DNA of 64,000 bases, taken from Desulfurivibrio alkaliphilus AHT 2 (GTDB lineage: Bacteria; Desulfobacterota; Desulfobulbia; Desulfobulbales; Desulfurivibrionaceae). The translations under genes and the position numbers were made by a program. Below are positions 27,608-62,965 of this stretch, one piece after another; position 1 is the stretch's first letter; every line of letters starts with the position of its first letter. The DNA lies in NCBI RefSeq assembly GCF_000092205.1, contig NC_014216.1:2175742-2239741 (forward strand), read 5' to 3'. The notes under the pieces are model-generated. The model searched no databases and had not been told where the DNA came from. It saw nothing but the letters and a program-made list of their open reading frames with translations.

Positions 27608-27671
27608 TTAACGTGTCAATATTCACAATTTTCATGCTATCTTTTTCCACTGCACACCGGCGAGCCCGGCG

Positions 27672-27778
27672 GTAAACTCGCAGCAGTGCCGCAGCTTGCG
27701 GCAAGCGGACCGGCGCCGCGTACATCAGTACGCAAGCCGGGCCGATCGCCGCAAGATGCGGTGCTGCTGTGAGTTTAC
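27672..27778. repeat. GTAA cloverleaf element, copy D (atpG-atpD)
   Basis: A 107-nt copy in the opposite orientation to A and B. Read on the minus strand, arms GTAAACTCACAGCAG and CTGCTGCGAGTTTAC pair with one A-C mismatch at position 9. The core is CCGCATCTTGCGGCGATCGG, then CCCGGCTTGCGTAC-tgat-GTACG, then GCCGCA-agc-TGCGGC. The core is clearly homologous to A and B while the arms share only GTAA with them. On the minus strand the element begins directly after the atpG stop codon (TAG-GTAA). Confidence 0.88.
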
Positions 27779-39277: not shown

Positions 39278-39361
39278 AAGCAGCCCGGCTGCAACGGTAG
39301 CCGGTTGCGCCAAGCCACCACTGTTTGCTCACAACCCGCACTTTATAGAGGGAGAATAATC

Positions 39362-42300: not shown

Positions 42301-42697
42301 CTGTACCGGCCGGGTGGTGGAACACTGGCATACCGGCAGCATGACCACCCGGGTGGCGGAGCTTTCCCGGGCGGTGCCCAAGGCTTACGTGGAACTCAAC
42401 GCCGAGCTGGCGACCAAGCTCAACATCCGCGAGGGCGACCCGGTGATCGTCGAATCCCGCCGGGGCAAAGTGGAGTTGCCGGCCAAGGTGCTGGATGTCA
42501 CACGGGCCACCGGCGGGCCGCGCCACGATTACGTATTTATCCCCTGGTTCGACGAGTTCAAGCTGGTCAACATGATCATGAACGAGCATTTTGACCCGCT
42601 GAGCTTCCAGATGGATTACAAGATGTTCTCGGTTAAACTGAGCAAGGGTACCATCCGGGAGCAGACGCAAGCCGTGCCCGGCCCCATTATCGCTTAG
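39362..42697 (+). CDS. NapA-like periplasmic molybdopterin oxidoreductase, enlarged
   Basis: A DMSO-reductase-family molybdoenzyme closest in motif pattern to NapA. Start at MQISRRNFLRASAITAAATA with GGAG upstream; SRRNFLRA is a twin-arginine signal. A [4Fe-4S] site, CRYCAVGC, is followed by NRGVLCTKGFYLHR. The NapA-type molybdenum region QPRTCMASAVVGY supplies a Cys ligand (NapA of E. coli has RHCMASAVVG). WCMGVNQKVQGTW, FTGQPNACGG and the C-terminal TGRVVEHWHTGSMTTRV are also NapA-like. At 1111 residues it is nearly 300 longer than NapA, with extra segments after the FeS site (WINPATGKPDLANSPRVRDG) and in the C-terminal third. Nitrate is the likely substrate by similarity, but the insertions leave this open. 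Confidence 0.82.
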   Translation: MQISRRNFLRASAITAAATAAGVKLDPSLAVAANSVKTFPVGQCRYCAVGCTIVADAQVDAAGKAKKIIAIKGDMQSTVNRGVLCTKGFYLHRAMDYQGRPKGALVRKEWINPATGKPDLANSPRVRDGVTTKDPRGITPSDVDLKENFALVPWEDAIEFVADAVEKTVRENGKHSVAYYGSGQLGSEETHIMNKAFKGGGMLANNAIEGQPRTCMASAVVGYLYTFGKDEPYGSYDDLDVPDPDFNKHADTFFLIGSNTAEAHPIPFNRIAAVKQKNPDQVKVILADPRKTRSGTIADLWLPFATGRDLALLNSMAYVIAREMDNAEYDVEKGTVSADWNYLDRKFIERHANFGIHEDVKKTWIKTEYGGIRGTAHDMSHTMGLKRAVYPDLKKKYGSEREIMADLYKGFAMFLEFLSDYNPDQIADIIFEGESPLLYDRDTRTWKKISGPEAIRLAAEWFAKGYTTSVWCMGVNQKVQGTWTNASLHMLNLITGKAVKPGRHSFSFTGQPNACGGIRAPGALCHALPYGRVVANPIHRGQVENLWKERAAAYLKKQGVSESEIKAETDRIQIHPIPGPHTQEMFRRLASGQIKVQFVACVNPGQSLAYSWPYRKAMGAAAKGSSWPITVTLESFPTATTTISDVVLGASSWYEKEFIFGNLERRYQVIKQVVEPAGDTVPDHTIFACLVRRLEEKGLVPKGHVSQFWPEEYDGADWLKKTISAAKTPEWNRQFSSNIWEEMQALSGGTGYNFTGMNRDVLLDRNHGYRIPFPADVHTDPAMKARYDKYESRIQYAYPYDPLVERITNAYLGNQKAINPAYGRWLEKNINAMKADREYQRANNVPEGWFASFYNSNAFIHGFLDHPDGHRVPGFDGRAIIWANPWWACKFDGKKFAKYQTVDVVERKFNAAKVDESSVAPFDVTSRYTVKVVGDPDREVTALKSIVFSPADIQNHKEEFIKDDGSRLVMYDTTGYVYGACTGRVVEHWHTGSMTTRVAELSRAVPKAYVELNAELATKLNIREGDPVIVESRRGKVELPAKVLDVTRATGGPRHDYVFIPWFDEFKLVNMIMNEHFDPLSFQMDYKMFSVKLSKGTIREQTQAVPGPIIA

Positions 42698-42746
42698 GGT
42701 AATAGCACCGCAGCACCGCATCTTGCGGCACTGCGGCGCGATTACC
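42698..42746. repeat. short GTAA palindrome, copy H (after the NapA-like gene)
   Basis: A 49-nt reduced copy starting directly at the stop codon of the NapA-like gene. Arms GGTAAT-a-GC-a-CCGCAG and CTGCGG-c-GC-g-ATTACC pair with one A-G and one A-C mismatch around CACCGCATCTTGCGGCA, which keeps the core's first hairpin. A T-rich stretch (about 42754-42779) follows, so it might also terminate or attenuate transcription before the NapG-like gene. Confidence 0.7.
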
Positions 42747-42858
42747 CCCTTCTTTGTTGGGTTGTTTTTTATTTTATTGCTCCTCCCTTGGTGGGCGGGA
42801 AAAGTTTTTTGGTTGTACTTTTCCCGCCCGCCGTTTTTGGTTGTTATGTGGTGTGATT

Positions 42859-43635
42859 ATGGGTCTTAACAGGCGAACTTTTTTGAAGGTGGTGGCGGCC
42901 GCCGGGGCGGCCGGGGTGGCCGGGAGCAGCGGGCTGTTGCTGCGGGAAGATGCCAGGCGGCGGCAAGCGGCGGCGGCCGAGCGGCACCTTAGCCCCCTTC
43001 CGGAGATTACCGAAACCGGCCTGGTGCGGCCACCCGGCGCCCTGCCGGATCGGCAGTTTCGCAGTAACTGCAGCGGCTGTGGCGCTTGCCTCAATGTCTG
43101 CCACACCATGGGCTACGACGCCATTGCCATGGCCGGACCACGCCACGGCCTCCAGGGCGCAACCCCTTATATCAAAGATATGCGGGATTTTCCCTGCACC
43201 CTGTGCATGGAATGCCCGAGTCAATGCCCCACCGGGGCCTTGCAGCCGGTGGAAAAGCCTGAAGTAAAGATGGGAATCGCCCTGATCGACCTCAAGCTCT
43301 GCTTCGGCTGGAACGGTGATGTCTGCCTTTCCTGCAGCAAGGCCTGCCCCCTGGGCGCCTCGGTGTTTGATTTCTACTACGGGGCCTGGGGTAACCAGCC
43401 CTACATCAACGAGAAATGCGTGGGTTGCGGGCTGTGTGTAAAATACTGCCCCCTGGGCGGCTCGGCGGTGAAGGTGGTGACCACGGAGGTTTATGCCGGT
43501 CTCAAGGATGAGTACCTTGCGGAGGTGGAGCAAACGCTGCACGTCTCCGGCGAGGAGCGCTACGAAATGGTTTACGGCCATAATCTGCCGGAGATAATGG
43601 CCCGGGGAAGGTTGGTGGAACGTGAATACCGCTAA
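42859..43635 (+). CDS. NapG-like ferredoxin-type protein, twin-arginine exported
   Basis: Electron-transfer protein with four predicted [4Fe-4S] clusters. Start taken at MGLNRRTFLKVVAAAGAAG (42859), which places the twin-arginine motif NRRTFLKVV at the N-terminus; the 35 upstream open codons are unlikely to be coding. Cys motifs: CSGCGACLNVC, CTLCMECPSQCP, CLSCSKACP and CVGCGLCVKYCP. In the Nap system NapG and NapH pass quinol electrons to the periplasm. It overlaps the napH-like gene by 14 nt and follows the NapA-like gene after about 160 nt holding palindrome H. Confidence 0.86.
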   Translation: MGLNRRTFLKVVAAAGAAGVAGSSGLLLREDARRRQAAAAERHLSPLPEITETGLVRPPGALPDRQFRSNCSGCGACLNVCHTMGYDAIAMAGPRHGLQGATPYIKDMRDFPCTLCMECPSQCPTGALQPVEKPEVKMGIALIDLKLCFGWNGDVCLSCSKACPLGASVFDFYYGAWGNQPYINEKCVGCGLCVKYCPLGGSAVKVVTTEVYAGLKDEYLAEVEQTLHVSGEERYEMVYGHNLPEIMARGRLVEREYR

Positions 43636-44473
43636 AGATAACGCCCCCAAAACCCCCGGCCGGGGAATCCCCTGGACTCTGCTGCGGCGCACGGTGATGC
43701 TGGCCATCCTGGCCCTGTTCATGCTCCAGTACTTCGAGATCAAGCTGCTGGTGGGCAGCCTTTCCGGCTCCACCCTGCTGGGAAGCATCAAGCTGCTGGA
43801 TGTCTTTGCCTTTTTCGAGATCTCGGCGGCGGCCAAAGGGATCAGCCTGACCCTGATCACCGCCGTGCTGCCGGTGGCCCTGCTTTACCTGGTGCTGGGC
43901 CGGGCCTTCTGCGGCTGGGTCTGCCCCATGGACCTGCTTTTTTCCCTGGTGGACAAGTTGCGCCCCGGCGACCAGCAGGGGCCGGCCAGGCTCCCCCTGC
44001 CGCCCAGAGTCGGCTACTGGCTGGCCGGCGGCCTGCTGCTGCTGGCTTTGCTCTTCAGCCTGCCGCTATTCACCAATTACCTGTCGCACCTGACCAATTT
44101 TTTCCGGACCATCGCCGGCCTGGTCTTTCTGGCCGGCGACCTGCCGGTGGAGCCGGCGATGATCGCCTGGTCGCTGCTGACCCTGCTGGCCCTGCTGGTG
44201 CTGCACTATTTCTACCCCCGGCTCTGGTGCCGGGTACTCTGCCCGGTGGGCAAGACCTACGGCCTGTTCAACCGGCTCAGCCTGCTCAAACTGCGCTTCA
44301 ACCAAGGCGATTGCGAAGGCTGCGAGTTATGCGAGCACAAATGCTACATGGGGGTTAAAATTGTCCGCAACCTGGACCGGGGCCAACTGCGCGATCCCAA
44401 CTGCATCTACTGCGGCCGCTGCATCGAGGGTTGCCGCCGGAAGGGCAAACTGATCAGGATGAGTTTAAAATAA
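43622..44473 (+). CDS. NapH-like membrane quinol dehydrogenase subunit
   Basis: Membrane protein with four hydrophobic helices and ferredoxin motifs. It starts at GTG 43622 (MNTAKDNAPKTPGRGIP), inside the end of the napG-like gene. Cytoplasmic Cys-Pro motifs CGWVCPMD and CRVLCPVGK, characteristic of NapH/CcoG-type proteins, are followed by two C-terminal [4Fe-4S] sets, CEGCELCEHKCY and CIYCGRCIEGCRRKG. The last Pro of the second set is replaced by Arg. It probably takes electrons from menaquinol and hands them to the NapG-like protein. Confidence 0.87.
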   Translation: MNTAKDNAPKTPGRGIPWTLLRRTVMLAILALFMLQYFEIKLLVGSLSGSTLLGSIKLLDVFAFFEISAAAKGISLTLITAVLPVALLYLVLGRAFCGWVCPMDLLFSLVDKLRPGDQQGPARLPLPPRVGYWLAGGLLLLALLFSLPLFTNYLSHLTNFFRTIAGLVFLAGDLPVEPAMIAWSLLTLLALLVLHYFYPRLWCRVLCPVGKTYGLFNRLSLLKLRFNQGDCEGCELCEHKCYMGVKIVRNLDRGQLRDPNCIYCGRCIEGCRRKGKLIRMSLK

Positions 44474-44514
44474 CCGGCGCTTGCGCCGGTCAATCTCTCG
44501 ACAAGGAGTAAACC

Positions 44515-44772
44515 ATGCTGGTAGCCAGCGGCTATGTGGAAGTAAACGAAGAGAGTGAGCTGGAACAGGTAAAGGCCACCCTGGAGGCGGATAATATTGA
44601 GGTAACCGAGGCCCAGGGGGTAAAAATCGTCTTCCTGATCGAGCGGGACCGGGCCGGAGAGGTCAAAGCGGCCCTGGACGGCCTGAAGGACATCCCCGGG
44701 GTGCGTACCGTTTACCTGGCCTACTACAGCCTGGAATGCAGCGACCAGGAGAAGGATGAACTGCTGGCCTAG
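44515..44772 (+). CDS. NapD-like twin-arginine signal-binding chaperone
   Basis: An 85-residue protein of ferredoxin-like fold: LVASGYVEVNEESELEQVKATLEADNIEV and FLIERDRAGEVKAALDGLKDIPGVRTVYLAYYSLE match the NapD pattern, including the closing VRTVYLAYYSLE strand. NapD binds the NapA signal peptide and holds the enzyme back from export until the cofactor is inserted. AAGGAG lies upstream of the ATG. The position at the end of the cluster supports the NapA assignment of the large enzyme. It converges with mnmA after only 3 nt. Confidence 0.83.
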   Translation: MLVASGYVEVNEESELEQVKATLEADNIEVTEAQGVKIVFLIERDRAGEVKAALDGLKDIPGVRTVYLAYYSLECSDQEKDELLA

Positions 44773-50241: not shown

Positions 50242-50844
50242 TCAGGCCCCAAGAAACTGCCGGATCTGCTCTTTGTACTGCTCCAGGGCACGGCCGTACT
50301 GGCTGTTCAGTTCATCAAGCACCCGCTGCCATTCCTCCTGGAATTTGGGGTGCTGTTCCGGGCGCAGGTTGGGCGACATCCCGGTCTGAGCGGCAAGCTG
50401 ACCCTCCAGCCGGGCCATCTCCTGGGCAAACTGCTCGGCCAGTTGCTGGCGCAGTTGCTTCTGATGATTCAGGTACTGCTCCAGCACCTTCTTCAACTCG
50501 CCCAGGAAACGCAGCAATTCACCACTGCCCCCGGCCAGCGCGACCATGCCGGCCATGGCCCGTTCCGCCGGGCCAAGCTGTTCCTCGTCCCGGGGCAGGA
50601 AAATGTTGCGGGCCAGTGTCTGAAACATCCCCCGCCGCAAAGCCGCTTGCTTTTCCGGCGGTGCGGCGGTCAGGTCGGCGGCCAGGTCAAGCTGTTCACC
50701 GTTCAGGTACGCGGCGGCCCGCCGCATCCCCTCCCGAACCAGTTCTTCCTCGGCCAGGCCGGTGTCGGCCCGGTCGGCACCTTTGGCGTCCATGGCCGCC
50801 AGCCGCTCCATCACCTTTTCCATGCTGCTTTTAATTTCACTCAC
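50242..50844 (-). CDS. hypothetical coiled-coil protein of 200 residues
   Basis: I do not recognise a family. The protein (MSEIKSSMEKVMERLAAMDA) is almost entirely helical by composition, rich in Glu, Gln, Leu and Ala, with a long Gln-rich coiled-coil stretch from about residue 110 (FLGELKKVLEQYLNHQKQLR) to the end (YKEQIRQFLGA). No signal peptide or membrane helix. It is the first gene of the run leading to tgt, placed after the nuo terminator on the same strand. A structural or scaffolding role is possible but is a guess. Confidence 0.65.
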   Translation of the reverse strand: MSEIKSSMEKVMERLAAMDAKGADRADTGLAEEELVREGMRRAAAYLNGEQLDLAADLTAAPPEKQAALRRGMFQTLARNIFLPRDEEQLGPAERAMAGMVALAGGSGELLRFLGELKKVLEQYLNHQKQLRQQLAEQFAQEMARLEGQLAAQTGMSPNLRPEQHPKFQEEWQRVLDELNSQYGRALEQYKEQIRQFLGA

Positions 50845-51221: not shown

Positions 51222-52649
51222 TTAGCCCAAAGAGCGAACCGCCATGGCTGCTGTGTCCAGGGCCATGCCGGGCAGGACGCCCAGGGCGATGATGATCAGC
51301 ACCAGGGCCACGCCCAGGGTCCGGGTGGGCAGGTTTAGTCCGATGGCCGGTCTTGACTCCGGTTCGGCGGTGTAGACCACCCGCACCACCGACAGGTAGT
51401 AGTAGATGGCGATGGCGGTGTTGATCGCCGCCAGGATTACCAGGGCCAGGTGGCCCTGCTGCAGGGCGCTGGTCAGCAGGAAGAACTTGCCCATGAAACC
51501 AACAAAGGGCGGGATGCCGGCCAGGGCAAAGAGCCCCACCGCCAGCACCAGGGCCAGCAGCGGTGCCCGCCGATAGAGGCCGCTGAGGTCTTCGATTTTG
51601 ACATTTTCACCGGCCCGGGAGACATTGCAGATCACCAGGAAGCAGGCCAAGCTCATCACCACGTAACCGGTGGCGTAGTACAGGGCGGCGGCGTAGCCCA
51701 TCACATCCAGGGTCAAAACCCCCACCAAGATAAAGCCGGCGTGGGCGATGCCGGAAAAGCCCAGCATCCGCTTAATATCGGTCTGCACCAGCGCCGAGAG
51801 GTTGCCGTAGAACATGGAAATTACCGCCAGCATGGTCAACAGCGTCACCAGGGTTCCGGTGCCGGCCCCCGGCGCGGCCAGGGTGGAAATTTTGATCAGC
51901 ATGGCGGCGGCGGCGATCTTGGGCAGGGAGGCGATGAAGGTTGTGGTCTCGTTGGAGGCCCCCTGGTAGACATCGGGTACCCAGAAATGGAAGGGGAAGA
52001 TGGCCAGCTTGTAGAAAAAGCCCGCCATCACCATCACGATCCCCACCAGCACCGCCGGGTTATCGAGCATCCCGGCCAGCACCGGTACCATTTCCGGCAG
52101 ATGGGTGGTGCCGCTTAAGGCAAACAGGTAGCTCATGCCAAAGAGCATGATGCCGCTGGCCACCACCCCGAAGATTACGTACTTGACCGCCGCCTCCATT
52201 TGGATGCGCAGCCCTTTACGGTCATCCCGCATGGGGACCATCAGGTAGAGGCAGTAGGAGGATAGCTCCAGGGCCATGAACAGGGTCAGCAACTCGGCGC
52301 TGCTGACCAGCATCATCAGCCCAACCACCGAACAGAGCATGAAGAGGTAGTATTCCGGCCGCACGCCGTCGGCAATGTCTTTGAGTTCCCGACCGATCAC
52401 CAGCACCGCCACCAGGCCCAGGGCCAGGATCAGTTTGACCAACTGGGAGAAAAAGTCCATCCGCAGAGCTTCAAAGAAGATGGTGCCCTGCTGCCCAAGG
52501 CAGGCCAAGGCCGCAACCGCCGCCACGGCGGCAAAAAGCAGTGCCGTCAGGCGGGCCTTGCGGCCGTCGGCGCCGGCCACACTCAGGTTAAAAAGCACCA
52601 GAGCGCCCAGCAGGAGAAATAATTCGGGAAGAAAAAGAAGAATTTTCAT
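51222..52649 (-). CDS. nuoN: NADH-quinone oxidoreductase-type subunit N
   Basis: Antiporter-like proton-channel subunit of complex I. The 475-residue protein has about 14 hydrophobic helices and the conserved ELSSYCLYLMV (Glu and neighbouring residues of helix 5), KLAIFPFHFWVPDVYQGASNETTTFIASLPK (Lys in helix 7-8) and MLGFSGIAHAGFILVG. It is the last gene of the operon, 19 nt after nuoM. In this complex it forms the pump nearest to NuoK/J/A by analogy with known structures. Confidence 0.95.
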   Translation of the reverse strand: MKILLFLPELFLLLGALVLFNLSVAGADGRKARLTALLFAAVAAVAALACLGQQGTIFFEALRMDFFSQLVKLILALGLVAVLVIGRELKDIADGVRPEYYLFMLCSVVGLMMLVSSAELLTLFMALELSSYCLYLMVPMRDDRKGLRIQMEAAVKYVIFGVVASGIMLFGMSYLFALSGTTHLPEMVPVLAGMLDNPAVLVGIVMVMAGFFYKLAIFPFHFWVPDVYQGASNETTTFIASLPKIAAAAMLIKISTLAAPGAGTGTLVTLLTMLAVISMFYGNLSALVQTDIKRMLGFSGIAHAGFILVGVLTLDVMGYAAALYYATGYVVMSLACFLVICNVSRAGENVKIEDLSGLYRRAPLLALVLAVGLFALAGIPPFVGFMGKFFLLTSALQQGHLALVILAAINTAIAIYYYLSVVRVVYTAEPESRPAIGLNLPTRTLGVALVLIIIALGVLPGMALDTAAMAVRSLG

Positions 52650-52668
52650 ACCAATCCTGTTCCGTACT

Positions 52669-54195
52669 TTACGGTATTAAGCGGGCCAATCCCATGCCCT
52701 CGGTCTGGGCCGCCATACCCACCTGCTCCAGCAGATGGGCCACACTGACCTCCATCACCGCCAGGAAGGGGCCGGGCGAGAGGCCGATCCAGAAGACAAA
52801 GAGCAACAGAGGAGCCAGGATAACGATTTCCCGGGCGTTCAAGTCCGTCAGCCCGGTGTGCCTGGGGTTGTCGGTGCCGCCCCAGACCACCCGCTGCAGC
52901 AGGCGGAACATGTAAGCGGCGGCCAGTACCGCGCCGGGAATGGCAAAAGCGGCGATCAGGATCGAACGCTCGAAACCCCCGGCTAAAATCATGAACTCAC
53001 CGACAAAGGAGTTGGTGCCAGGGAAGGCCAGGGATGAGAGCGAGAAGAAGCCCAGAAAGATAACATAGATCGGCATCAGCTTGCCGACCCCGGCGTTGAG
53101 CACCAACTCCCGGCTGTGGGTCCGCTCATAGAGCATGCCCACGCAGAAGAACAGCGCCCCGGTGGTGATCCCATGGTTGACCATCTGCAAAATCGAGCCC
53201 TCGATCCCCTGGGCGTTGAGAACAAAAATCCCCAGGGTGACAAAGCCCATGTGCCCGACACTGGAATAGGCGATCAGCTTCTTCATGTCCTGCTGGGCCA
53301 GGGCGGTGAAGCCGCCGTAGAGGATCCCGATAATGGAGAGCCAGAGGATGTAGGGCATGAATATAAAGGTGGCCTCGGGGGTGATGGGCAGGCAGAAACG
53401 GAGAAAGCCGTAGGTGCCCATTTTCAGCAGCACCGAAGCCAGGATCACGCTGCCGGCGGTGGGGGCCTCGACGTGGGCGGCCGGCAACCAGGTGTGGAAG
53501 GGGAACATGGGTACCTTGATGGCAAAGGCCAGGAAGAAGGCCAAAAAGACCCAGATCTGGAAGGTGGTGGAGAAATGCTGTTCCATCAGCAGCGGAATGC
53601 TGAAGGTCTGGGGCTCGGAGGTGAGAAAGAGGGCGATGATGGCCACCAGCAGCAGCACCGAGCCGGCCAGGGTGTAAAGGAAAAACTTGATGGAGGCGTA
53701 CATTTTGCGCGGCCCGCCCCAGACGGCGATCAGCAGGTACATGGGAATCAGCATCGCTTCCCAGAAGATGTAGAAAAGCACGAAATCAAGGGCCATGAAA
53801 ACCCCCAGCATGGCGGTTTCCATGAGCAGCAGGCAAAACATGAATTCCTTGACCCGGGTGGTGATATAACGCCAGGAGCCCAGCACACACAGCGGCATGA
53901 TGATGGTGGTCATCAGCACCAGCAGCAGGCTGATGCCGTCCACCCCCAGGGTGTAATTGATATCCCAGGCGGCGATCCAGCTGCGATGCTCCCCAAACTG
54001 GTAGAGGTGGGTGCTGGTGTCGAACATGAAGAAAAGCGGCAGACTGACCAGCGCCGTAGCCACGGTGACAATCAGACTCCAACTGCGGCAGGCATTGTCA
54101 CCCGGCATGACCAGCAAAACCAGCGCCCCCAGCAGCGGCAAAAACACCAGGGCGCTCAGAATCGGGAACCCTTGGTTGATCAGCAGAAAATCCAT
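52669..54195 (-). CDS. nuoM: NADH-quinone oxidoreductase-type subunit M
   Basis: Antiporter-like pump subunit, 508 residues with about 14 helices. Motifs: FYIFWEAMLIPMYLLIAVWGG with the conserved helix-5 Glu, AIKVPMFPFHTWLPAAHVEAPTAGSVILASVLLKMGTYGFLRF with the broken-helix Lys, and IAYSSVGHMGFVTLG. It lies 18 nt after the nuoL-like gene and 19 nt before nuoN. Confidence 0.96.
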   Translation of the reverse strand: MDFLLINQGFPILSALVFLPLLGALVLLVMPGDNACRSWSLIVTVATALVSLPLFFMFDTSTHLYQFGEHRSWIAAWDINYTLGVDGISLLLVLMTTIIMPLCVLGSWRYITTRVKEFMFCLLLMETAMLGVFMALDFVLFYIFWEAMLIPMYLLIAVWGGPRKMYASIKFFLYTLAGSVLLLVAIIALFLTSEPQTFSIPLLMEQHFSTTFQIWVFLAFFLAFAIKVPMFPFHTWLPAAHVEAPTAGSVILASVLLKMGTYGFLRFCLPITPEATFIFMPYILWLSIIGILYGGFTALAQQDMKKLIAYSSVGHMGFVTLGIFVLNAQGIEGSILQMVNHGITTGALFFCVGMLYERTHSRELVLNAGVGKLMPIYVIFLGFFSLSSLAFPGTNSFVGEFMILAGGFERSILIAAFAIPGAVLAAAYMFRLLQRVVWGGTDNPRHTGLTDLNAREIVILAPLLLFVFWIGLSPGPFLAVMEVSVAHLLEQVGMAAQTEGMGLARLIP

Positions 54196-54213
54196 AAGTC
54201 ACTAGTCCTTAGG

Positions 54214-55998
54214 TCAGTTGGCAAAGACATAGAGGATCAGCAGCACGGCCACAAAGGCAACAGTGGTAAACACGTTGACCTGAATCCGGGCCGCCTGCAG
54301 GTGGCGAACCCGGTCGCCGACCCCCCGCACCGTCCGGGCCAGCCCATCCACCACCCCATCAATGGCGTGCCAGTCGAACCAGGACCAGAAACGGGAGACG
54401 GTCATCAGAGGATTAAGTCCCCAGGTGTTGTAGGCATTGTTCACTGCGGTATCGGCGCCCTGGATGGGTTTTCTGGCCAGCCACAGAACGATGAGCCCGC
54501 CCTTGCGGTAGAGCCAATCCAGATCCAGGGTAATGGTCGGGATGGGCAGCAGCATTTTGCGCATGACATAAAACGCCAGGGCGGTGAAGCCGAGCAGTTG
54601 CAAGGTTTCCGCCAGCTGGTAGGCATTGTAGGGTTGATACTCGACCGGGTTGGGCAGCATACCGTAGAGGTAAGGGTAGTAAACCCCGACCAGCACACAG
54701 AAAAAGGCGCCCATCCCCATGGCCAGCTGCATGTGCCAGGGCGGATCGGCGGCCCGCTCATAAGTTTCCTGCGAGCAGCGGGACTCGCCGAACCAGATCA
54801 GGTAAGGCAGCTTCAGCCCGTTGTAGAGAAAGGTGCCGGCGGAGGCGGCCAGCAGGATGAAGGTGGCCCAGTAGTGCTCGCCGTAAAAGCCCGCCGAGAT
54901 AATCATCGACTTGCTGACAAAGCCGGAAAAGAGCGGGAAGGCGGCAATGGAGGCACAACCCACCAGGGTAAAGAGCAGGGTCCGGGGCATCTTCTTATAC
55001 AACCCGCCCAGCTCGGTGAACTTGCTGGTGCCGGTCATGTGCAACACCGAACCCACCCCCATGAACAAAAGGCCCTTGTATAAAATGTGGGCAAAGGCGT
55101 GGGCGGCGGCGCCGTTGATGGCCAGGCTGCTGCCGATCCCCACCGCCGCCACCATGTAGCCCACCTGGCTGATGATACTGTAGGCCAGCAGCCGCCGGGC
55201 ATCGTTTTCCAGCACCGCGTAAATCACCCCCACCACCGCCATGATCACCCCCAGGGGGATCAGGATCTCCATGCCGGCAAACCCTCGGGCCAGGGTATAG
55301 ACCGCGGTCTTGGTGGTAAAGGCGCACATGAACACCGCCCCCACCACCGAGGCCTCACCATAGGCATCGGGCAGCCAGGAGTGGAGCGGGAAGACGGCGG
55401 CGTTGAGCATGAAGCCGATGAGGATCAGCCAGGTGGCAACGGTGGGCTGGCTGATATCGAGTGCGTTAAAGCTCAAATCGCCACCGGTGGCGTGGTAATG
55501 CAGGACGATGCCGGCCAGCAGGGCCAGGCCGCCGGCGGTGTGCACCAGCAGGTAGCGGTAACCGGCCCCCAGCGACTGGGCCCGGCCCCGGAACCAGATC
55601 AGGAAGGTGGAGGCAAAGGCCATGATCTCCCAGAAGAGAAAGAGCACCAGGAAATCGCCGGCAAAAATAACCCCCAGCGAGCCGGCCACGTAAAACCAGG
55701 CGGCCATGTGCTGGTATGGATCCCGGACATGCAGCCCGTAAAGGGTGCCCAGAATGCACATCAGGGCCATGATGTAAGCAAATACCAGGCTTAATGAGTC
55801 GACCCGGCCAAAGACCAGTTCCCAGTCGGCAAAGCTGAAGACCCCGTAAACCCCCGGCGTCATGCTCAGCACCGCCCCGAATGACAGGGTCGGGATCAGC
55901 AGCAGGAAGGGCACTCGCAGCGCCCCACGGAAGAAAGGCACGGCGCAGGCACCGATGATCAGAATTAAGGCCGGGTGCAGCCAGATATTACTTATCAT
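54214..55998 (-). CDS. nuoL: NuoL-type antiporter-like subunit
   Basis: 594-residue polytopic protein. It has the pump signature FLFWEIMAFASTFLIW (helix-5 Glu), NAAVFPLHSWLPDAYGEASVVGAVFMCAFTTKTAVY and AYSIISQVGYMVAAVG. After the antiporter core a long extension contains DLDWLYRKGG, an amphipathic stretch and a final membrane helix (VFTTVAFVAVLLILYVF). This resembles the C-terminal lateral helix arrangement of NuoL and is the reason I call it NuoL rather than a second NuoM. Its start overlaps the end of the 83-residue gene by 11 nt. Confidence 0.85.
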   Translation of the reverse strand: MISNIWLHPALILIIGACAVPFFRGALRVPFLLLIPTLSFGAVLSMTPGVYGVFSFADWELVFGRVDSLSLVFAYIMALMCILGTLYGLHVRDPYQHMAAWFYVAGSLGVIFAGDFLVLFLFWEIMAFASTFLIWFRGRAQSLGAGYRYLLVHTAGGLALLAGIVLHYHATGGDLSFNALDISQPTVATWLILIGFMLNAAVFPLHSWLPDAYGEASVVGAVFMCAFTTKTAVYTLARGFAGMEILIPLGVIMAVVGVIYAVLENDARRLLAYSIISQVGYMVAAVGIGSSLAINGAAAHAFAHILYKGLLFMGVGSVLHMTGTSKFTELGGLYKKMPRTLLFTLVGCASIAAFPLFSGFVSKSMIISAGFYGEHYWATFILLAASAGTFLYNGLKLPYLIWFGESRCSQETYERAADPPWHMQLAMGMGAFFCVLVGVYYPYLYGMLPNPVEYQPYNAYQLAETLQLLGFTALAFYVMRKMLLPIPTITLDLDWLYRKGGLIVLWLARKPIQGADTAVNNAYNTWGLNPLMTVSRFWSWFDWHAIDGVVDGLARTVRGVGDRVRHLQAARIQVNVFTTVAFVAVLLILYVFAN

Positions 55999-56239
55999 AA
56001 TAATCCTCGTCGGTCTGCAGGCCGATCAGACCAATGGTTTTGGCCACCACAATGATCACCACCGCCGCGCCAAACCCGAATAACGACCAGAAGCCCGGCA
56101 ACAGCTCGGCGGCGGTATAGGCCTTGGTCTTGTCCAGCAGCAAAATATCCCACAGCAGCAACAGCGCCAGCAGGGCCAGAGCAAGCTTGGCCAGCAGGGG
56201 CAGGCGGGCACGCAATTTATCGATAATTTCCACAATCAT
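55988..56239 (-). CDS. small two-helix membrane protein of the nuo operon
   Basis: 83 residues with two membrane helices (LLAKLALALLALLLLWDILLL and FWSLFGFGAAVVIIVVAKTIGL) and a short acidic tail (QTDEDYYDK). I do not recognise a named family. It lies 12 nt after the extra antiporter-like gene and overlaps the nuoL-like gene by 11 nt, so it is surely co-translated with them. It could be a small accessory subunit beside the additional pump. Confidence 0.75.
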   Translation of the reverse strand: MIVEIIDKLRARLPLLAKLALALLALLLLWDILLLDKTKAYTAAELLPGFWSLFGFGAAVVIIVVAKTIGLIGLQTDEDYYDK

Positions 56240-56251
56240 GGCCGGCCTCTC

Positions 56252-57739
56252 TTACATCAATCCCGCAGTAACCATTTTGACAAACTGCAGCATAAAATCA
56301 GGATAAATACCGATAATCACCGAAATGGTGGCGGCAATCACAATGGGAATCACCATGGTCAGCGGCGCTTCCTTGATCCCGGCGGGCAGGGTCTCGCCGG
56401 CCGGCGGTTTGCCGAAGAAGGCCTTGTAGGTGATGGGGGCAAAGTAACCGACATTGAGCAGGGTGGAGACCAGCAGCACCAGCACAATGCCCAACTGGGC
56501 GGCATCCAGGGAGCCGATCAGCAGGTACCATTTGGTGACAAAGCCGGCCACCGGCGGCGCCCCGATCATGGATAGCGAGGCAATGGCAAAGGCCCCGAAG
56601 GTAAAGGGCATCACCCGGCCCAGGCCCCCCATCTCGGAGATATTCTTCTTGTGGGCGGCGACGTAGATCGCCCCGGCGCAGAAGAAGAGAGTGATCTTGG
56701 CAAAGGCGTGGTTGGTGATATGGATCAACCCGCCTTCCACCGCCGCCGGGGTCAGCAGGGCCACCCCGAGGATGATGTAGCTGAGCTGGCTGACGGTGGA
56801 GTAGGCCAGCCGGGCCTTGAGATTGTCCTTGGTCAGGGCGATGATGGAGGCCGTCAGGATGGTGAAGGAAACAAAGTAGGCGGTGATAATCCCCAGGTTG
56901 AGATCATCCATGATGTCGACGCCGAAGACGTAGAGCATCACCCGGGTGGTGCAGAAGACCCCGACCTTGACCACCGCCACCGCGTGCAACAGGGCGGAAA
57001 CCGGGGTGGGGGCCACCATGGCGCCGGGTAACCAGCCGTGGAACGGCATCACCCCGTTTTTGGCAAAGCCCAGCAGGCAGAAGAAGTAGAGCACCGTAAC
57101 CAGGGCCGCATTGGCGCCCTCGGGAAGAATGCCGGTGCTGACGTTGTCGGCAAATTCCAGGGTGCCGGTGAGCACATAGATCAGGATCATGGCCGGCAAC
57201 ACCAGCCCCTTGGCGGTGGCGGTCAGGTAAACGATGTACTTCTTGGCTCCTTCATAGCCCTCTTGGTCCTGGTGGTGGGCCACCAGGGGGTAGGTGCCGA
57301 TACTGACGATCTCGTAGAAGAGATAGAGGGTGAAGAGGTTGTCGGCAAAAGCCACCCCCATGGCTCCGAACAGGGCCAGGGCGAAACAGGTGTTGAACCT
57401 GGTCTGGGCATGCTCGTGCAGCCCCCGCATGTAGCCGGCTGAGTAGGAAACCGCCAGAATCCAGAGGAAGGAGGCGGCCAGGGCGAAGATCAGCGAAAAG
57501 GCATCCACCCGCAGGGTCACCGAAACCCCGGGCAGGATTTGAAAAATGGGATAAACCAGGGTCTTGCCGGCCAGAATCACCGGCACCATGGAGGCGATGA
57601 TGGTGAACATCACCACCGCCGCCAGCATGGACCACGATTCCCGGATATTGGGGTTGCGCCCGGAAAGCATCACCAGGATGGCCCCGATCAGGGCGGCCAG
57701 CAGAGCCAGCAACGGTTTTGACGAAACAATTGGTTCCAT
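56252..57739 (-). CDS. additional antiporter-like subunit (MrpD/NuoM/NuoN-like) in the nuo operon
   Basis: 495-residue polytopic protein: about 14 helices, with LYLFYEIVSIGTYPLVAHHQ (helix-5 Glu), FAKNGVMPFHGWLPGAMVAPTPVSALLHAVAVVKVGVFCTTRV and AYSTVSQLSYIILG. It lacks the C-terminal lateral-helix extension of NuoL. It is a fourth pump-like subunit beside L, M and N. It stands between nuoK and the nuoL-like gene, starting 18 nt after nuoK. In Mrp terms it is nearest to MrpD; the antiporter family assignment is firm, its role in this complex is inferred. Confidence 0.85.
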   Translation of the reverse strand: MEPIVSSKPLLALLAALIGAILVMLSGRNPNIRESWSMLAAVVMFTIIASMVPVILAGKTLVYPIFQILPGVSVTLRVDAFSLIFALAASFLWILAVSYSAGYMRGLHEHAQTRFNTCFALALFGAMGVAFADNLFTLYLFYEIVSIGTYPLVAHHQDQEGYEGAKKYIVYLTATAKGLVLPAMILIYVLTGTLEFADNVSTGILPEGANAALVTVLYFFCLLGFAKNGVMPFHGWLPGAMVAPTPVSALLHAVAVVKVGVFCTTRVMLYVFGVDIMDDLNLGIITAYFVSFTILTASIIALTKDNLKARLAYSTVSQLSYIILGVALLTPAAVEGGLIHITNHAFAKITLFFCAGAIYVAAHKKNISEMGGLGRVMPFTFGAFAIASLSMIGAPPVAGFVTKWYLLIGSLDAAQLGIVLVLLVSTLLNVGYFAPITYKAFFGKPPAGETLPAGIKEAPLTMVIPIVIAATISVIIGIYPDFMLQFVKMVTAGLM

Positions 57740-58179: not shown

Positions 58180-58288
58180 GTAAAACTTTCGCCGGTGCCG
58201 CAGGTTGCGGCAAGCGGACCGGCGCCGCGTACATCAGTACGCAAGCCGGGCCGATCGCCGCAAGATGCGGCGCCGGCGGAAGTTTTAC
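58180..58288. repeat. GTAA cloverleaf element, copy E (nuoJ-nuoK)
   Basis: Full-length 109-nt copy in the same orientation as D. Read on the minus strand, arms GTAAAACTTCCGCCGG and CCGGCGAAAGTTTTAC pair with one C-A mismatch at position 10. The core is nearly identical to that of D (GCCGATCGGCC-type stem, GTAC-tgat-GTAC hairpin, GCCGCA-acc-TGCGGC). The first TAA of the element is the stop codon of nuoJ (CGG TAA AAC). The remaining 95 nt to nuoK show no other clear signal. Confidence 0.88.
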
Positions 58289-58806
58289 CGGCGGCCGCGG
58301 CGGGCCAGGACTAGTGAACCGATGATGGCCACCAGCAAAATCAGGGAAATCAGTTCAAAACTGACCACAAAGGTGGTCATCATCGCCCGCCCCACATCTT
58401 CCAGGGCACCGGCATTAACCTGACTGGACGCTTCCGGCCAGGAGGTCCGCAGGGCCAGGGCGGCCAGCCCCCAGGCCATCAGGGCGGCGGCGGCAAAAGC
58501 CCCCGGCCCGGCCAGGGGATGGGCCCGTTCCAGCCTTTTTGCCCCCTGGGGTTCGGCCAGCATCACCGCAAAGACAATGGCCACACAGACCGCTCCGGCA
58601 TAAATCAGAACCTGCATCAGGGCCAGGAAGGGGCTTTGCAGGAAATAATAAATCCCGGCCACCCCCACCAGGCAAAGGGCCAGACCGCACACCGCCCGGA
58701 TCAGGTTGACGGCGTTGGTGGCCACCAGGGCGCCGAAGATGATCAGCAGGATGAAGCCGAAGAAAACCACCCCGGCCAGTCCTTCTACGGTAAATAATGG
58801 CGTCAT
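58285..58806 (-). CDS. nuoJ: NADH-quinone oxidoreductase-type subunit J
   Basis: Membrane subunit of 173 residues with five helices. Start at MTPLFTVEGLAGVVF (58806), overlapping the nuoI stop as ATGA; an ATG six codons upstream is less likely. LMQVLIYAGAVCVAIVFAVML is the helix-3 region with a pi-bulge in known structures. Its stop codon belongs to palindromic element E, so the last residues (LARRGRR) may be newly acquired. Confidence 0.94.
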   Translation of the reverse strand: MTPLFTVEGLAGVVFFGFILLIIFGALVATNAVNLIRAVCGLALCLVGVAGIYYFLQSPFLALMQVLIYAGAVCVAIVFAVMLAEPQGAKRLERAHPLAGPGAFAAAALMAWGLAALALRTSWPEASSQVNAGALEDVGRAMMTTFVVSFELISLILLVAIIGSLVLARRGRR

Positions 58807-59243
58807 CGCCTCCGTTCCTCGCAACGTTTTAGCAGGTCAAAGACAAAATCTTCGGCCTTGAAACCGGCCAGGTTGTATTCTTTGGAAAAATCCAGGGCGT
58901 CGGTGGGACAGCTTTCCACACAGAGCCCGCAGAGGCTGCATTTGGTAAAATCCAGCCGGTAGCCGGTGAGCACCTTTTTCTTGGCCCCTTCGGGTTTTTC
59001 ACTCTTAAGCGTGATGCAGCCCGACGGGCAGTTGCGCTGGCACATGCCGCAGGCGATGCACTTGTTGCCGCTCTCGGCATCCGGCACCAGATCGATATGG
59101 CCCCGGTAGCGCGGCGCCATTTTCACCGCCTGGCGGGGGTACTGCAGGGTCACCACCGGCCGGATCATGTACTTGAAGGTGATCCCCAGGCCTACTACCA
59201 GGCTTTTACAGCCATCGTAAATTTCTTTAAAATAGCCGCTCAT
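58803..59243 (-). CDS. nuoI: NADH-quinone oxidoreductase-type subunit I
   Basis: Peripheral-arm subunit with two [4Fe-4S] clusters (N6a and N6b): CIACGMCQRNCPSGCI and CSLCGLCVESCPTDAL. 146 residues with an N-terminal amphipathic helix region (YFKEIYDGCKSLVVGLGITF). It lies 1 nt after nuoH and overlaps nuoJ. In a complex without NuoEFG this would be close to the electron entry point, and a ferredoxin-like donor is possible. Confidence 0.95.
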   Translation of the reverse strand: MSGYFKEIYDGCKSLVVGLGITFKYMIRPVVTLQYPRQAVKMAPRYRGHIDLVPDAESGNKCIACGMCQRNCPSGCITLKSEKPEGAKKKVLTGYRLDFTKCSLCGLCVESCPTDALDFSKEYNLAGFKAEDFVFDLLKRCEERRR

Positions 59244-60247: not shown

Positions 60248-61366
60248 CTAACGGTCGATGTCCGGAATTACCAGGTCCAGGCTACCAAACAGGGCCACCG
60301 CATCGGCCAGCAGCAGGCCGCGAGCCGCCTCGCCGAAAAGGCTGACATTGCTGAAACAGGGTGAGCGCAGCTTGAGGCGATAGGGAGTGTTGCTGCCGTC
60401 GCTGACCAGCCGCACCCCGAAGGAACCCCGAGCCGCCTCGACGGCGTGGTAATAATCCCCCTTGGGCGGCTTGATGATCTTGGGCACCTTTTCCGCCATT
60501 ACCGGCCCGTCTGGCAGTTTATCCAGCCCCTGTTCTACGATGCGCAGGCTCTGCTCGATTTCATCCATCCGCACCAGGTAGCGGGCCATGGAGTCGCCCT
60601 GCTCGTACACCGGGATATCAAAATCAAACTCCGGGTAGACCGAATAGGGCTCGTGCTTGCGCACGTCGTAGGGAATGCCCGAGCCGCGGGCCACCGGTCC
60701 GGTGGCGCCGTACTTGCGGCACATCTCCCCGGTCACCACGCCGATACCCTCCAGCCGTTGGCGCAGGATGATGTTCTTAGTGATCAGGTTGTGATACATG
60801 GGCAGCGCTTCCCGGATCCGCTTAACCACCGCCCGGGCGCCGGCCTCGAACTGGTCGTCGACGTCGTTGTACAGACCGCCAAAGCGGAAATAACAGTAAG
60901 TCAGGCGGGAACCGGTGACCCGTTCCAGCAGGTCGAGAATCTGCTCACGATCGTCCATGGTGTACAGCAGGGGGGTGAAGCCGCCCAGGTCAAGCACGAA
61001 GGCGCCCAACCAGAGCAGATGACTGGAAACCCGGTTCAACTCCACGGTGATCACCCGCAGGTACTCAGCCCGTTCCGGCACGGCAATGCCGGCGGCCCGC
61101 TCCACCGCGGCCACATAACCGTGGTTGTAAGCCATGGCCGAAAGATAGTCCAACCGGCTGGGGTTGGGCAAAAACTGATGGTAGGTACGATTTTCCCCCA
61201 TCTTTTCGTGCATCCGGTGGATATAGCCCAAAACCGGCTCGGCCTCGACGATAAACTCGCCATCCATCAGGAGTTTGACCCGCAGGGCCCCATGGGTGGC
61301 CGGATGCTGCGGCCCCATGTTGAGGACGAAGGTTTCGTAGGCGGGATCGGCGGCCAGTTGGCTCAT
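60248..61366 (-). CDS. nuoD: NADH-quinone oxidoreductase-type subunit D
   Basis: 49-kDa quinone-binding subunit, 372 residues. Motifs: NMGPQHPATHGALRVKLLMDGE, LGYIHRMHEKMGE, YLSAMAYNHGYVAAVE, ELNRVSSHLLWLGAFVLDLG, and a C-terminal SLDLVIPDIDR in place of the usual final Arg. The family is related to NiFe-hydrogenase large subunits, but the hydrogenase metal-binding Cys pairs are missing, as in all NuoD. Its start overlaps the nuoC stop (ATGA). Confidence 0.97.
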   Translation of the reverse strand: MSQLAADPAYETFVLNMGPQHPATHGALRVKLLMDGEFIVEAEPVLGYIHRMHEKMGENRTYHQFLPNPSRLDYLSAMAYNHGYVAAVERAAGIAVPERAEYLRVITVELNRVSSHLLWLGAFVLDLGGFTPLLYTMDDREQILDLLERVTGSRLTYCYFRFGGLYNDVDDQFEAGARAVVKRIREALPMYHNLITKNIILRQRLEGIGVVTGEMCRKYGATGPVARGSGIPYDVRKHEPYSVYPEFDFDIPVYEQGDSMARYLVRMDEIEQSLRIVEQGLDKLPDGPVMAEKVPKIIKPPKGDYYHAVEAARGSFGVRLVSDGSNTPYRLKLRSPCFSNVSLFGEAARGLLLADAVALFGSLDLVIPDIDR

Positions 61367-61980
61367 GGCTTATAATCCTTGCGCAGGGGGTGAAAATCGG
61401 CGTCTTCCGGCAACAGCAACGGCGACAGATCGGGATGCCCGGTAAAGACCAAGCCGAAAAAGTCGTGGGTTTCCCGCTCATGCCAGTTGGCGCCGGGGTA
61501 AATATCGGAGATGGTCGGCAGCTGAGGCTGGCTGCGGGGGACCCGGGTGCGGAGGACGACCCGGCAAAGCTCCTGGTAGTGGTTAAAATCGTACACCACC
61601 TCAAAGCTGTCTTCCACCGGCTCCGGTGCCGCTGCCGGCTCCTCTGCCGCCGGCGCCGGCGGTGATTCTGAAGCTGCTGCCGGCGCCGCTGCCGCTTCGC
61701 CCTGCTCAGCCGCCTCAGCGGCGGCTTTTTCCGCCGCTTTTTTAGCCGCCTCCGCCTTCTTGGCCGCTTCCTTGGCCAGGGCCTCCTGTTCACCCAGCCA
61801 GTCGACCCCGGTAATGGCCTCGATGAAGTAACCCTCCTGGTCGAGCACCCGCGCCGCTGCCGCGATCTCCCCGGAAGGAACGCTTACCTCAAGATGGACA
61901 CCACGGGCGGGGTGATCGCCGGTGGTCACCCGGGCGCCGGGCACTGCTGCCAGGGCCTTTTCCAGCGCAACGGCCTTCAT
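61363..61980 (-). CDS. nuoC: NADH-quinone oxidoreductase-type subunit C with low-complexity insertion
   Basis: 30-kDa subunit of the peripheral arm. Start at [18 protein letters not shown] (61980), overlapping the nuoB stop as ATGA; the frame is open 34 codons further into nuoB without support. 205 residues. The conserved halves are [13 protein letters not shown] (about residues 50-62) and [59 protein letters not shown]. Between them lies an Ala/Glu/Lys then Ala/Pro-rich stretch (about residues 63-125; 61606-61794) that is not part of the NuoC fold. Its start is helix-prone and its later part probably disordered. Confidence 0.93.
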
Positions 61981-62510
61981 GGGCCCACCTCCGGTTCCAC
62001 CCTGGGGAAACGGCGGCTGCCGGTGAGTTTTTCCTCCAGCAGCAGCAGGCCTTCGATGAGGGCCTCGGGCCGGGGCGGGCAACCGGGAATGTACACATCC
62101 ACCGGTAAAATCTTATCGGCCCCTTCGACAATGCCGTACTGGCCTTCAAAGACAAAGGGCCCCCCGGAAATGGCACAGTTGCCCATGGCGATCACCCACT
62201 TGGGGTGCGGCATCTGTTCGTACAGGGTAACGATGGCCGGGGCCATTTTTTTACTGATGGTGCCGGCCACGATCATCACGTCGGACTGCTTGGGAGCGGG
62301 GCGGAAGACCCCGGCCCCGAAACGGTCCAGGTCAAAACGAGAAGCGCCGGTGGCCATCATCTCGATGGCGCAGCAGGCCAGGCCGAAGGTCATGGGCCAC
62401 AGCGAGTTGGCCCGGCCCAGGTTGAGCAGTTTGTCCAGAACCGCGAACTGCACCACCGGGGGGTGGTCGTCCTGCGGCCGCTGTTCGGAGTGGTTGGGCA
62501 GTTTAATCAT
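61977..62510 (-). CDS. nuoB: NADH-quinone oxidoreductase-type subunit B
   Basis: Subunit carrying cluster N2. Start at [20 protein letters not shown] (62510), overlapping the nuoA stop as ATGA; a GTG 15 nt upstream is less likely. 177 residues. Cluster ligands: the tandem Cys of [18 protein letters not shown], Cys in [11 protein letters not shown] and Cys in [12 protein letters not shown]. The C-terminus ([12 protein letters not shown]) is typical. Confidence 0.97.
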
Positions 62511-62899
62511 ACTCTCCGTTCCCACTGAAAAATTCCTTTTTTCCAGGCGTAAACCACGGCCAGCGCCAAGGTGTCAATAAACAGAAAAACGACGATGAAA
62601 TCGAGCAGGGCGGAGCCGAGGATAACTTCTTTGGCGTAGATCAGGGCTACCGGGAGAAGAAACAGGACGTCGACGGCGAAAGCGAGAAAAATCAGGGCAT
62701 AGAGATAGTAGACAATACCGAAGCGAACCCAGGCTTCGCCGATGGGCTGCATGCCGCACTCGTAAAGGGTGTCGGTTTGGACTTGGCGGGTGCGGGGAGC
62801 GAGCAGCAGGGAGATGATGACCGGACCCAGGGCGAAGGCCACACCTCCGAGGAAAAAAGCCACCACGTACAAGAGATTAATCAGGTATTCCTGTTCCAC
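62507..62899 (-). CDS. nuoA: NADH-quinone oxidoreductase-type subunit A
   Basis: Three-helix membrane subunit. I choose GTG 62899 ([19 protein letters not shown]): it has AAGGAG seven bases upstream and gives 130 residues, near the usual length; an ATG-started reading adds 21 unconserved residues. Motif [40 protein letters not shown] carries the loop Cys and membrane acidic residues of the family. First gene of the operon; promoter and palindromic site lie upstream. Confidence 0.94.
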
Positions 62900-62965
62900 T
62901 CTTTCTCTCCTTATCCCCACGGAAGCTACTTCCCGAACCCCTCCGGAAAACAGAATCTGCACTTG

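Follow-up and report, generated by a model that had tools for sequence, protein, structure and literature searches.

The window analysed here is a stretch of 64,000 nucleotides from Desulfurivibrio alkaliphilus AHT 2 (contig NC_014216.1, positions 2,175,742 to 2,239,741), the genome of which is a single contig of 3,097,763 bases. It contains a nuo operon for a form of complex I, a run of 13 genes on the minus strand from 62962 down to 51222 in the order nuoABCDHIJK-X-S-Y-M-N, in which X and Y are antiporter-like subunits and S is a small membrane protein encoded between them. The genes are given below by window position, with bit scores against family models and the cut-off where there is one (TM, transmembrane helix).

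62507..62962, minus strand: NuoA, 151 residues; PF00507, 91 bits
61977..62525, minus strand: NuoB, 182 residues; PF01058, 104 bits; NF005012, 230 bits (cut-off 116)
61363..62082, minus strand: NuoC, open reading frame of 239 residues counted from the first possible start codon; PF00329, 110 bits
60248..61366, minus strand: NuoD, 372 residues; PF00346, 304 bits
59245..60234, minus strand: NuoH, 329 residues; NF004741, 336 bits (cut-off 305)
58803..59243, minus strand: NuoI, 146 residues, two 4Fe-4S motifs; TIGR01971, 118 bits (cut-off 113)
58285..58824, minus strand: NuoJ, 179 residues; PF00499, 106 bits
57758..58084, minus strand: NuoK, 108 residues; PF00420, 75 bits; NF004320, 78 bits (cut-off 57)
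56252..57739, minus strand: X, MrpD-like antiporter subunit without lateral helix, 495 residues; NF006236, 870 bits (cut-off 663)
55988..56239, minus strand: S, small conserved two-helix membrane protein, 83 residues; no named family
54214..55998, minus strand: Y, antiporter-like subunit with a long lateral helix, 594 residues; NF009310, 752 bits (cut-off 564)
52669..54195, minus strand: NuoM, 508 residues, clustering with Escherichia coli NuoM; TIGR01972, 608 bits (cut-off 264)
51222..52649, minus strand: NuoN, 475 residues, clustering with E. coli NuoN; TIGR01770, 361 bits (cut-off 333)

Ten of the products (A, B, C, D, H, I, J, K, M and N) match standard complex I subunits in Pfam and NCBIfam, and at least one NCBIfam cut-off is passed by M, N, H, I and B. 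The intergenic distances from nuoK to nuoN are so short (18, 12, −11 where S and Y overlap, 18 and 19 nucleotides) that a single operon is likely. A preliminary description of this DNA had read the same genes, order and coordinates, and these hold, as does its finding that a single complex I operon encodes four antiporter-like subunits, X, Y, M and N by the family models. Its label of NuoL for the 594-residue Y does not hold: Y scored 169 bits against the NuoL model TIGR01974, below the cut-off of 407.5. The models that X and Y pass are MrpD-like, both carrying the name antiporter subunit D, in agreement with the Mrp-family origin proposed earlier for the extra part.

No canonical NuoL was found in the genome at E≤1e-60 against the NuoL model; among the 56 genomes searched, NuoL scored above the cut-off in 12. 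All ten Proton_antipo_M proteins of the genome could be placed, four of them in the nuo operon and the other six split evenly between two Mrp-like clusters. The preliminary description would have been overturned if X belonged to a separate Mrp antiporter; this does not apply here, the two separate Mrp clusters having antiporter genes of their own. A joint tree was calculated from 42 hand-picked rows trimmed to 520 residues, in which X, Y, NuoL, NuoM, NuoN and the MrpD-position proteins were each split off by a branch with 100% bootstrap support and the window M and N grouped with those of E. coli; the deeper order is unsure owing to several long branches. A canonical MrpA to serve as reference was not found in the 28 relatives searched. 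The phylogeny proposed earlier for X gives it a clade of its own, apart from NuoL, NuoM, NuoN and the four MrpD rows, in a tree without MrpA and without characterised MrpD. Y shares with canonical NuoL the C-terminal lateral helix followed by the last TM helix, and at the key sites of NuoL it has Asn for the TM7 Lys (E. coli Lys229) and Gly for Asp178 of the TM6 region. Since Y fails the NuoL model, the genome is without a canonical NuoL, and X, Y and NuoL are separate clades, NuoL has been swapped and not supplemented. Judged from these comparisons, X, S and Y as a set take the place of NuoL; X, which had been regarded as an addition to NuoL, and S are not extras beside it.

Conservation of the arrangement was assessed in related loci, the best 80 of 410. 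The order K-X-S-Y-M was complete in 67, which excludes a chance arrangement; two loci (L082 and L093) had K-M-X-S-Y-N, and 11 were cut by contig ends or broken. In a count over 58 genomes, in which the context was not read one by one and Mrp-type Y proteins match only to about residue 510–540, a single match to the end of Y was present in 49 and a split match in three more; the other six (G001, G015, G019, G022, G025 and G036) gave no match to the Y end. The nearest named relative by Y is Desulfurivibrio sp. AMeS2 (95% identical), and the operon type is widespread in Desulfobulbales.

The relay of charged residues was compared between the antiporter-like subunits. X retains the TM5 Glu, the TM7 Lys, the TM8 Lys, the TM11 His/His/Lys and the TM12 Lys. 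At the TM7 position Lys is present in X, NuoL, M and N, whereas Y has Asn in 82 of 82 sequences (Asn199 in the window; 72 by pattern match and the other ten read by eye as N-A-A); the X fragments of L073 and L090 were excluded from this count. In the overlapping set used for the trees, Asn was found in 40/40 nuo and 16/16 Mrp copies of Y. Mutation of the TM7 Lys in L, M or N of E. coli is reported to abolish function (PMC3046159). In Thermus NuoL this Lys is described as belonging to a Lys-Asp/Arg-Glu pair set by which proton transfer is tuned (PMC11496545), and Y is also without the Asp of this set. From its residues Y is not expected to be a standard pump; it is perhaps silent, a carrier of another ion, or a user of His153. 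Because the full relay is present in N, M and X but not in Y, four antiporter-like subunits need not be four pumps, and the higher ion count previously suggested for a fourth subunit is not a necessary outcome. In the literature searched, no earlier report of the Y substitution or of S was found. Of the two Mrp-like clusters, the second (L011, G000:C1:2741956-2745865) encodes three divergent antiporter proteins, the 601-residue one of which keeps the TM7 Lys and is without the TM5 Glu.

The small membrane partner recognised in the preliminary description proved to be a conserved protein. Homologues of S are 33–83% identical, with I6, E45, W51, G55, I63, G70, E78, D79 and Y81 invariant, and a profile search across 247 genomes of the phylum found S in 108. 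Inspection of 20 regions showed X and/or Y next to it in 17, the neighbours in the other three being masked by a long overlapping frame; the context was nuo in 12, Mrp in six and ambiguous in two. No named family or structure was found for S above the cut-off in Pfam, NCBIfam, PDB sequences or Foldseek, and scattered Pfam matches below threshold were judged to be chance. The AlphaFold model (predicted local distance difference test score 86) has a short N-terminal helix (2–11) and membrane-length helices at 13–33 and 50–71, and the charge distribution suggests that both termini are inside. Open frames of 549–584 residues raised the possibility of a fused S-antiporter protein, which was set aside; they span the expected place of X and were taken, without a codon-by-codon check, as overlapping frames. 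Rhizobial operons carry a matching small gene (84 residues), annotated as hypothetical only. From its conservation, S can be regarded as a real two-helix subunit that is absent from family catalogues.

The length of the lateral helix was determined by counting the residues from one shared anchor, D.[LF]Y, to another, QxG. The distance was 70–71 residues in 75 of the 80 Y proteins measured, compared to 45–46 in canonical NuoL (n=11) and 41 in E. coli; in the remaining five (75 residues) the C-terminal anchor had slipped to the next Gln, and the window Y is 70 by reading. L048 and L072 were left out and L112 yielded no value. On this measure the lateral helix of Y is estimated to be about 24 residues longer than that of canonical NuoL (24–25 between the anchors), in line with the extension noted earlier. 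About 24 helical residues span some 36 Å, roughly the spacing of one further subunit. The tail after the first anchor comprises 96–102 residues in most nuo Y proteins and 68–73 in canonical NuoL; that of L161 is 122. The end of nuo Y is NuoL-like (ID-G-V--G ... QxG), and the Mrp paralogue of Y is without such an ending. The lateral helix of L161 has a repeated (V)DGxVNG unit, and its genome contains two more antiporter genes outside the operon.

The triad is also found outside complex I. L012, a stand-alone Mrp-like operon of the same genome, ends in paralogues of 494, 84 and 596 residues, which are 70%, 54% and 63% identical to the window X, S and Y by BLASTP. Unlike in the window, this triad is preceded by MrpC/MrpD-like genes, no redox subunits are encoded, and the lateral helix of Y differs, as if re-fitted. 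Trees of X and of Y were made from 59 hand-picked rows each, the Y sequences being cut before the lateral helix, the X tree being without L063 (no full-length X) and L181 being in neither. In both, the three Desulfurivibrio Mrp copies are nested in the nuo clade of Desulfobulbales (100/100), and most other Mrp copies lie outside it. Because of this nesting, the likeliest history would be that the Mrp operon of a Desulfurivibrio ancestor acquired its triad from a nuo operon. L082 and L093 are second complex I operons with the order ABCDHIJK-M-X-S-Y-N. Their A-K core and N are 26–42% identical to the window proteins, but NuoB is 62–63%; the values are 72–76% for M, 74–77% for X, 43–46% for S and 62–64% for Y. 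Since M-X-S-Y is far closer to the window than the core and N are, it appears to have been grafted onto another complex I. At L188 (G036:C1:2056000-2068000) four antiporter-like proteins in a row (496, 590, 502 and 772 residues) are 31–37% identical to X, Y, M and N, and no redox complex I gene was recognised within 12 kb.

In the green complex I of Degli Esposti & Martinez Romero (2016), two MrpD-like subunits are described in place of the single canonical NuoL (PMC9040806; also PMC7415380 and PMC5419562). The window operon is alike in having two MrpD-like subunits between NuoK and NuoM that replace canonical NuoL, and in the gene run K-X-S-Y-M-N including the 84-residue hypothetical gene of rhizobia. 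The view that the Mrp-like extra subunit is unlike described designs is thus superseded, rhizobial green complex I having the same module. X falls within the same clade as rhizobial X (96/97 in the X tree); rhizobial Y lies in a different branch and is about 50–52% identical to the window Y (best plasmid matches). On the rhizobial symbiotic plasmids, where X and Y are both annotated as 'antiporter D', the run J-K-X-S-Y-M-N precedes A-B-C-D-E-F-G, and H and I lie on the opposite strand, whereas the window operon, ABCDHIJK-X-S-Y-M-N, is without NuoE, F and G. These three are not stated as defining for green complex I in the portions of the sources available. Because they are missing, the operon is a variant of green complex I and not the rhizobial form itself. 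Its membrane arm is of a described design, the green type, here without the N module.

Complex_I_3 of Candidatus Manganitrophaceae is reported to have five antiporter-like subunits, including a second NuoM, and, compared with rhizobia, 26 more residues inserted in the lateral helix (PMC9040806). It resembles the window complex in the MrpD-like pair for NuoL with the lateral helix on MrpD2; the second NuoM sets it apart. In the 2M complex I of Nitrospira and others, reportedly described by Chadwick et al. in 2018, the fourth antiporter-like subunit is said to be a second NuoM, with NuoL kept and the lateral helix lengthened. The window complex shares with it a fourth antiporter-like subunit and the longer lateral helix; with one NuoM and no NuoL in the genome, as against a second NuoM beside NuoL, it is not of the 2M type. 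A close counterpart is the Nuo cluster of D. dismutans AMeS2 (L014), which is the same operon, with most subunits 90–97% identical. In the available part of its description it is given as NuoAHJKLMN plus NuoBCDI, without mention of X, S or the replacement of NuoL; the locus tags RS03515-03575 would be thirteen genes if numbered in fives, of which only NuoA-D and H-N are named there (PMC12142623). What appears to be new here is S as an uncatalogued subunit, the X-S-Y cassette and its transfer, the helix extension of about 24 residues, and the Asn at TM7 in all Y proteins examined.

No NuoE-, NuoF- or NuoG-like gene was found near the nuo operon within the window, in accordance with the preliminary description. 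The sole NuoG-like tblastn match in the window (41093-41515, 152 residues, 29%) lies inside the gene of a 1130-residue molybdopterin oxidoreductase. The only 51K (NuoF) protein of the genome is encoded at 1.67 Mb, alongside NuoE-, NuoG-N-terminus- and [NiFe]-hydrogenase-like genes. The E, F and G proteins of E. coli and Sinorhizobium, used as queries against the 80 related loci, gave one match longer than 100 residues (L034, NuoG, 30%); because many of the loci are cut by contig ends, the absence of NuoEFG in relatives holds only within the available sequence. The Nuo cluster of D. dismutans AMeS2 is likewise reported to be without NuoEFG, the homologues of which adjoin a hydrogenase, and to be strongly upregulated in sulfur disproportionation (PMC12142623). 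For NADH, D. alkaliphilus has a sodium-pumping Nqr (PMC5016858). A low-potential electron donor for the complex without NuoEFG is plausible. As to the ferredoxin- or F420-linked 11-subunit type of complex I, which is marked by a donor other than NADH, the observation bearing on it is the absence of NuoEFG. The 1130-residue protein is of the twin-arginine translocation type and belongs to an operon at 39305-44772 that also encodes a multi-cluster ferredoxin-type subunit and, recognised by eye, a NapH-like membrane protein and a NapD-like small protein; this may be the Arr-like nitrate system that has been discussed in D. dismutans.

Overall, we consider it probable that the operon encodes a complex I that has a membrane arm of the green type but lacks an NADH module, and in which N, M and X pump and Y chiefly acts as a clamp or an altered route for ions. 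The electrons would come from a low-potential carrier, either ferredoxin or a dedicated oxidoreductase, enter at NuoI/NuoB and reduce menaquinone. The arm would have the order N-M-X-Y with Y outermost, its longer lateral helix running along X, M and N, and S would pack between X and Y. Having a complete charged relay, N, M and X would pump as N, M and L do elsewhere; Y has no TM7 Lys for the Glu-Lys switch and would mainly clamp the end of the arm or offer a modified path for ions. With pumping by N, M and X and not Y, the stoichiometry is expected to be closer to the canonical 4 H+ per two electrons than to 5. Several observations weigh against this reading. The TM5 Glu, TM8 Lys and TM12 Lys of Y are invariant and the TM11 His/His/Lys nearly so, and all 40 nuo Y proteins have His153 where X has Ala and NuoL Asn, so that a working rearranged proton path in Y is conceivable. 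The structure model of the lateral helix of the window Y is of low confidence, and the tails of Mrp Y proteins are similarly long (most 93–102 residues; one 73, two unmeasured). Helix length therefore supports but cannot prove a four-subunit arm, and it was dropped as proof. Furthermore, the Y of L161 (G116:C17) carries about 26 further residues, though its operon has only four antiporter genes. Four working pumps, with a rearranged relay in Y (for instance TM5 Glu plus His153 of TM6) moving a fifth ion per electron pair, would be in keeping with these retained residues and the lengthened helix, and PMC9040806 counts a fourth ion-pumping subunit in green complex I and gives 5–6 ions for enlarged complexes. 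Nevertheless, every Y checked has Asn in place of a Lys that L, M and N of E. coli cannot do without, and we regard a fourth pump as possible but unlikely.

That X-S-Y is a separate Mrp antiporter merely located in the nuo operon seems highly improbable: paralogues of the triad do occur elsewhere in the genome, in a stand-alone Mrp operon, but no MrpB/E/F/G-like genes lie beside the window triad, NuoL is otherwise missing from the genome, nuo Y has the NuoL-like ending that the Mrp paralogue is without, and the gene order is kept in 67/80 loci. The direction of electron flow bears on a further alternative, in which the ion-motive force drives electrons from menaquinol up to ferredoxin or NAD, to be used in fixing CO2 while sulfur is disproportionated. 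Reverse use has been proposed for a related enlarged complex (PMC9040806), Nqr is available for NADH (PMC5016858), and the upregulation of the sister species' Nuo cluster in disproportionation would fit, although its authors interpret it as energy conservation (PMC12142623); we treat reverse operation as a tentative option. Docking of the Hox-like NuoE, F and G homologues at 1.67 Mb would turn the complex into an NADH or H2 dehydrogenase, and the accessible text on D. dismutans leaves this open (PMC12142623). These genes are distant from nuo and adjoin a [NiFe]-hydrogenase large-subunit-like gene, and Nqr can serve NADH, so we judge docking to be improbable.

The 200-nucleotide gap between nuoJ and nuoK contains an 83-bp hairpin repeat at 58193-58275 (about −61 kcal/mol, z −7.5). 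Among the matches listed, 43 further ones lie in the genome (253 candidates, of which 40 were scored), one of them at 27668-27764 of the window. No Rfam family scored above threshold for the repeat, which looks like a dispersed palindrome of the repetitive extragenic palindromic or miniature inverted-repeat transposable element type. Directly downstream of nuoN, at 50242-50844, lies the gene of a DUF6657 protein (PF20362, 55 bits), which also follows nuoN in the relative L014.

A wider proposal, which we advance with reserve, is that wherever complex I is of the green type or an Mrp system of the X-S-Y type, Y would be a pseudo-pump and an end clamp bearing the lateral helix, S an unrecognised universal subunit linking Y to the last true pump, X, and X-S-Y an exchangeable end cassette moving between redox-driven complex I and ion-driven Mrp, with the lateral helix rewritten for each host. 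If this is true, an extra antiporter-like subunit alters the architecture of the arm or the type of ion without adding a proton. The 83-residue protein gains a place as a conserved, unnamed subunit missed by annotation. Whether antiporter-like subunits map one-to-one to pumped protons is a central open question for complex I, and the present operon would offer a natural four-subunit complex with one subunit lacking a residue essential in the others, in culturable hosts (Desulfurivibrio, Fundidesulfovibrio and rhizobia). The H+/e− ratio of such a complex bears on the rule of one subunit for one proton and on the claim that enlarged complexes pump more.

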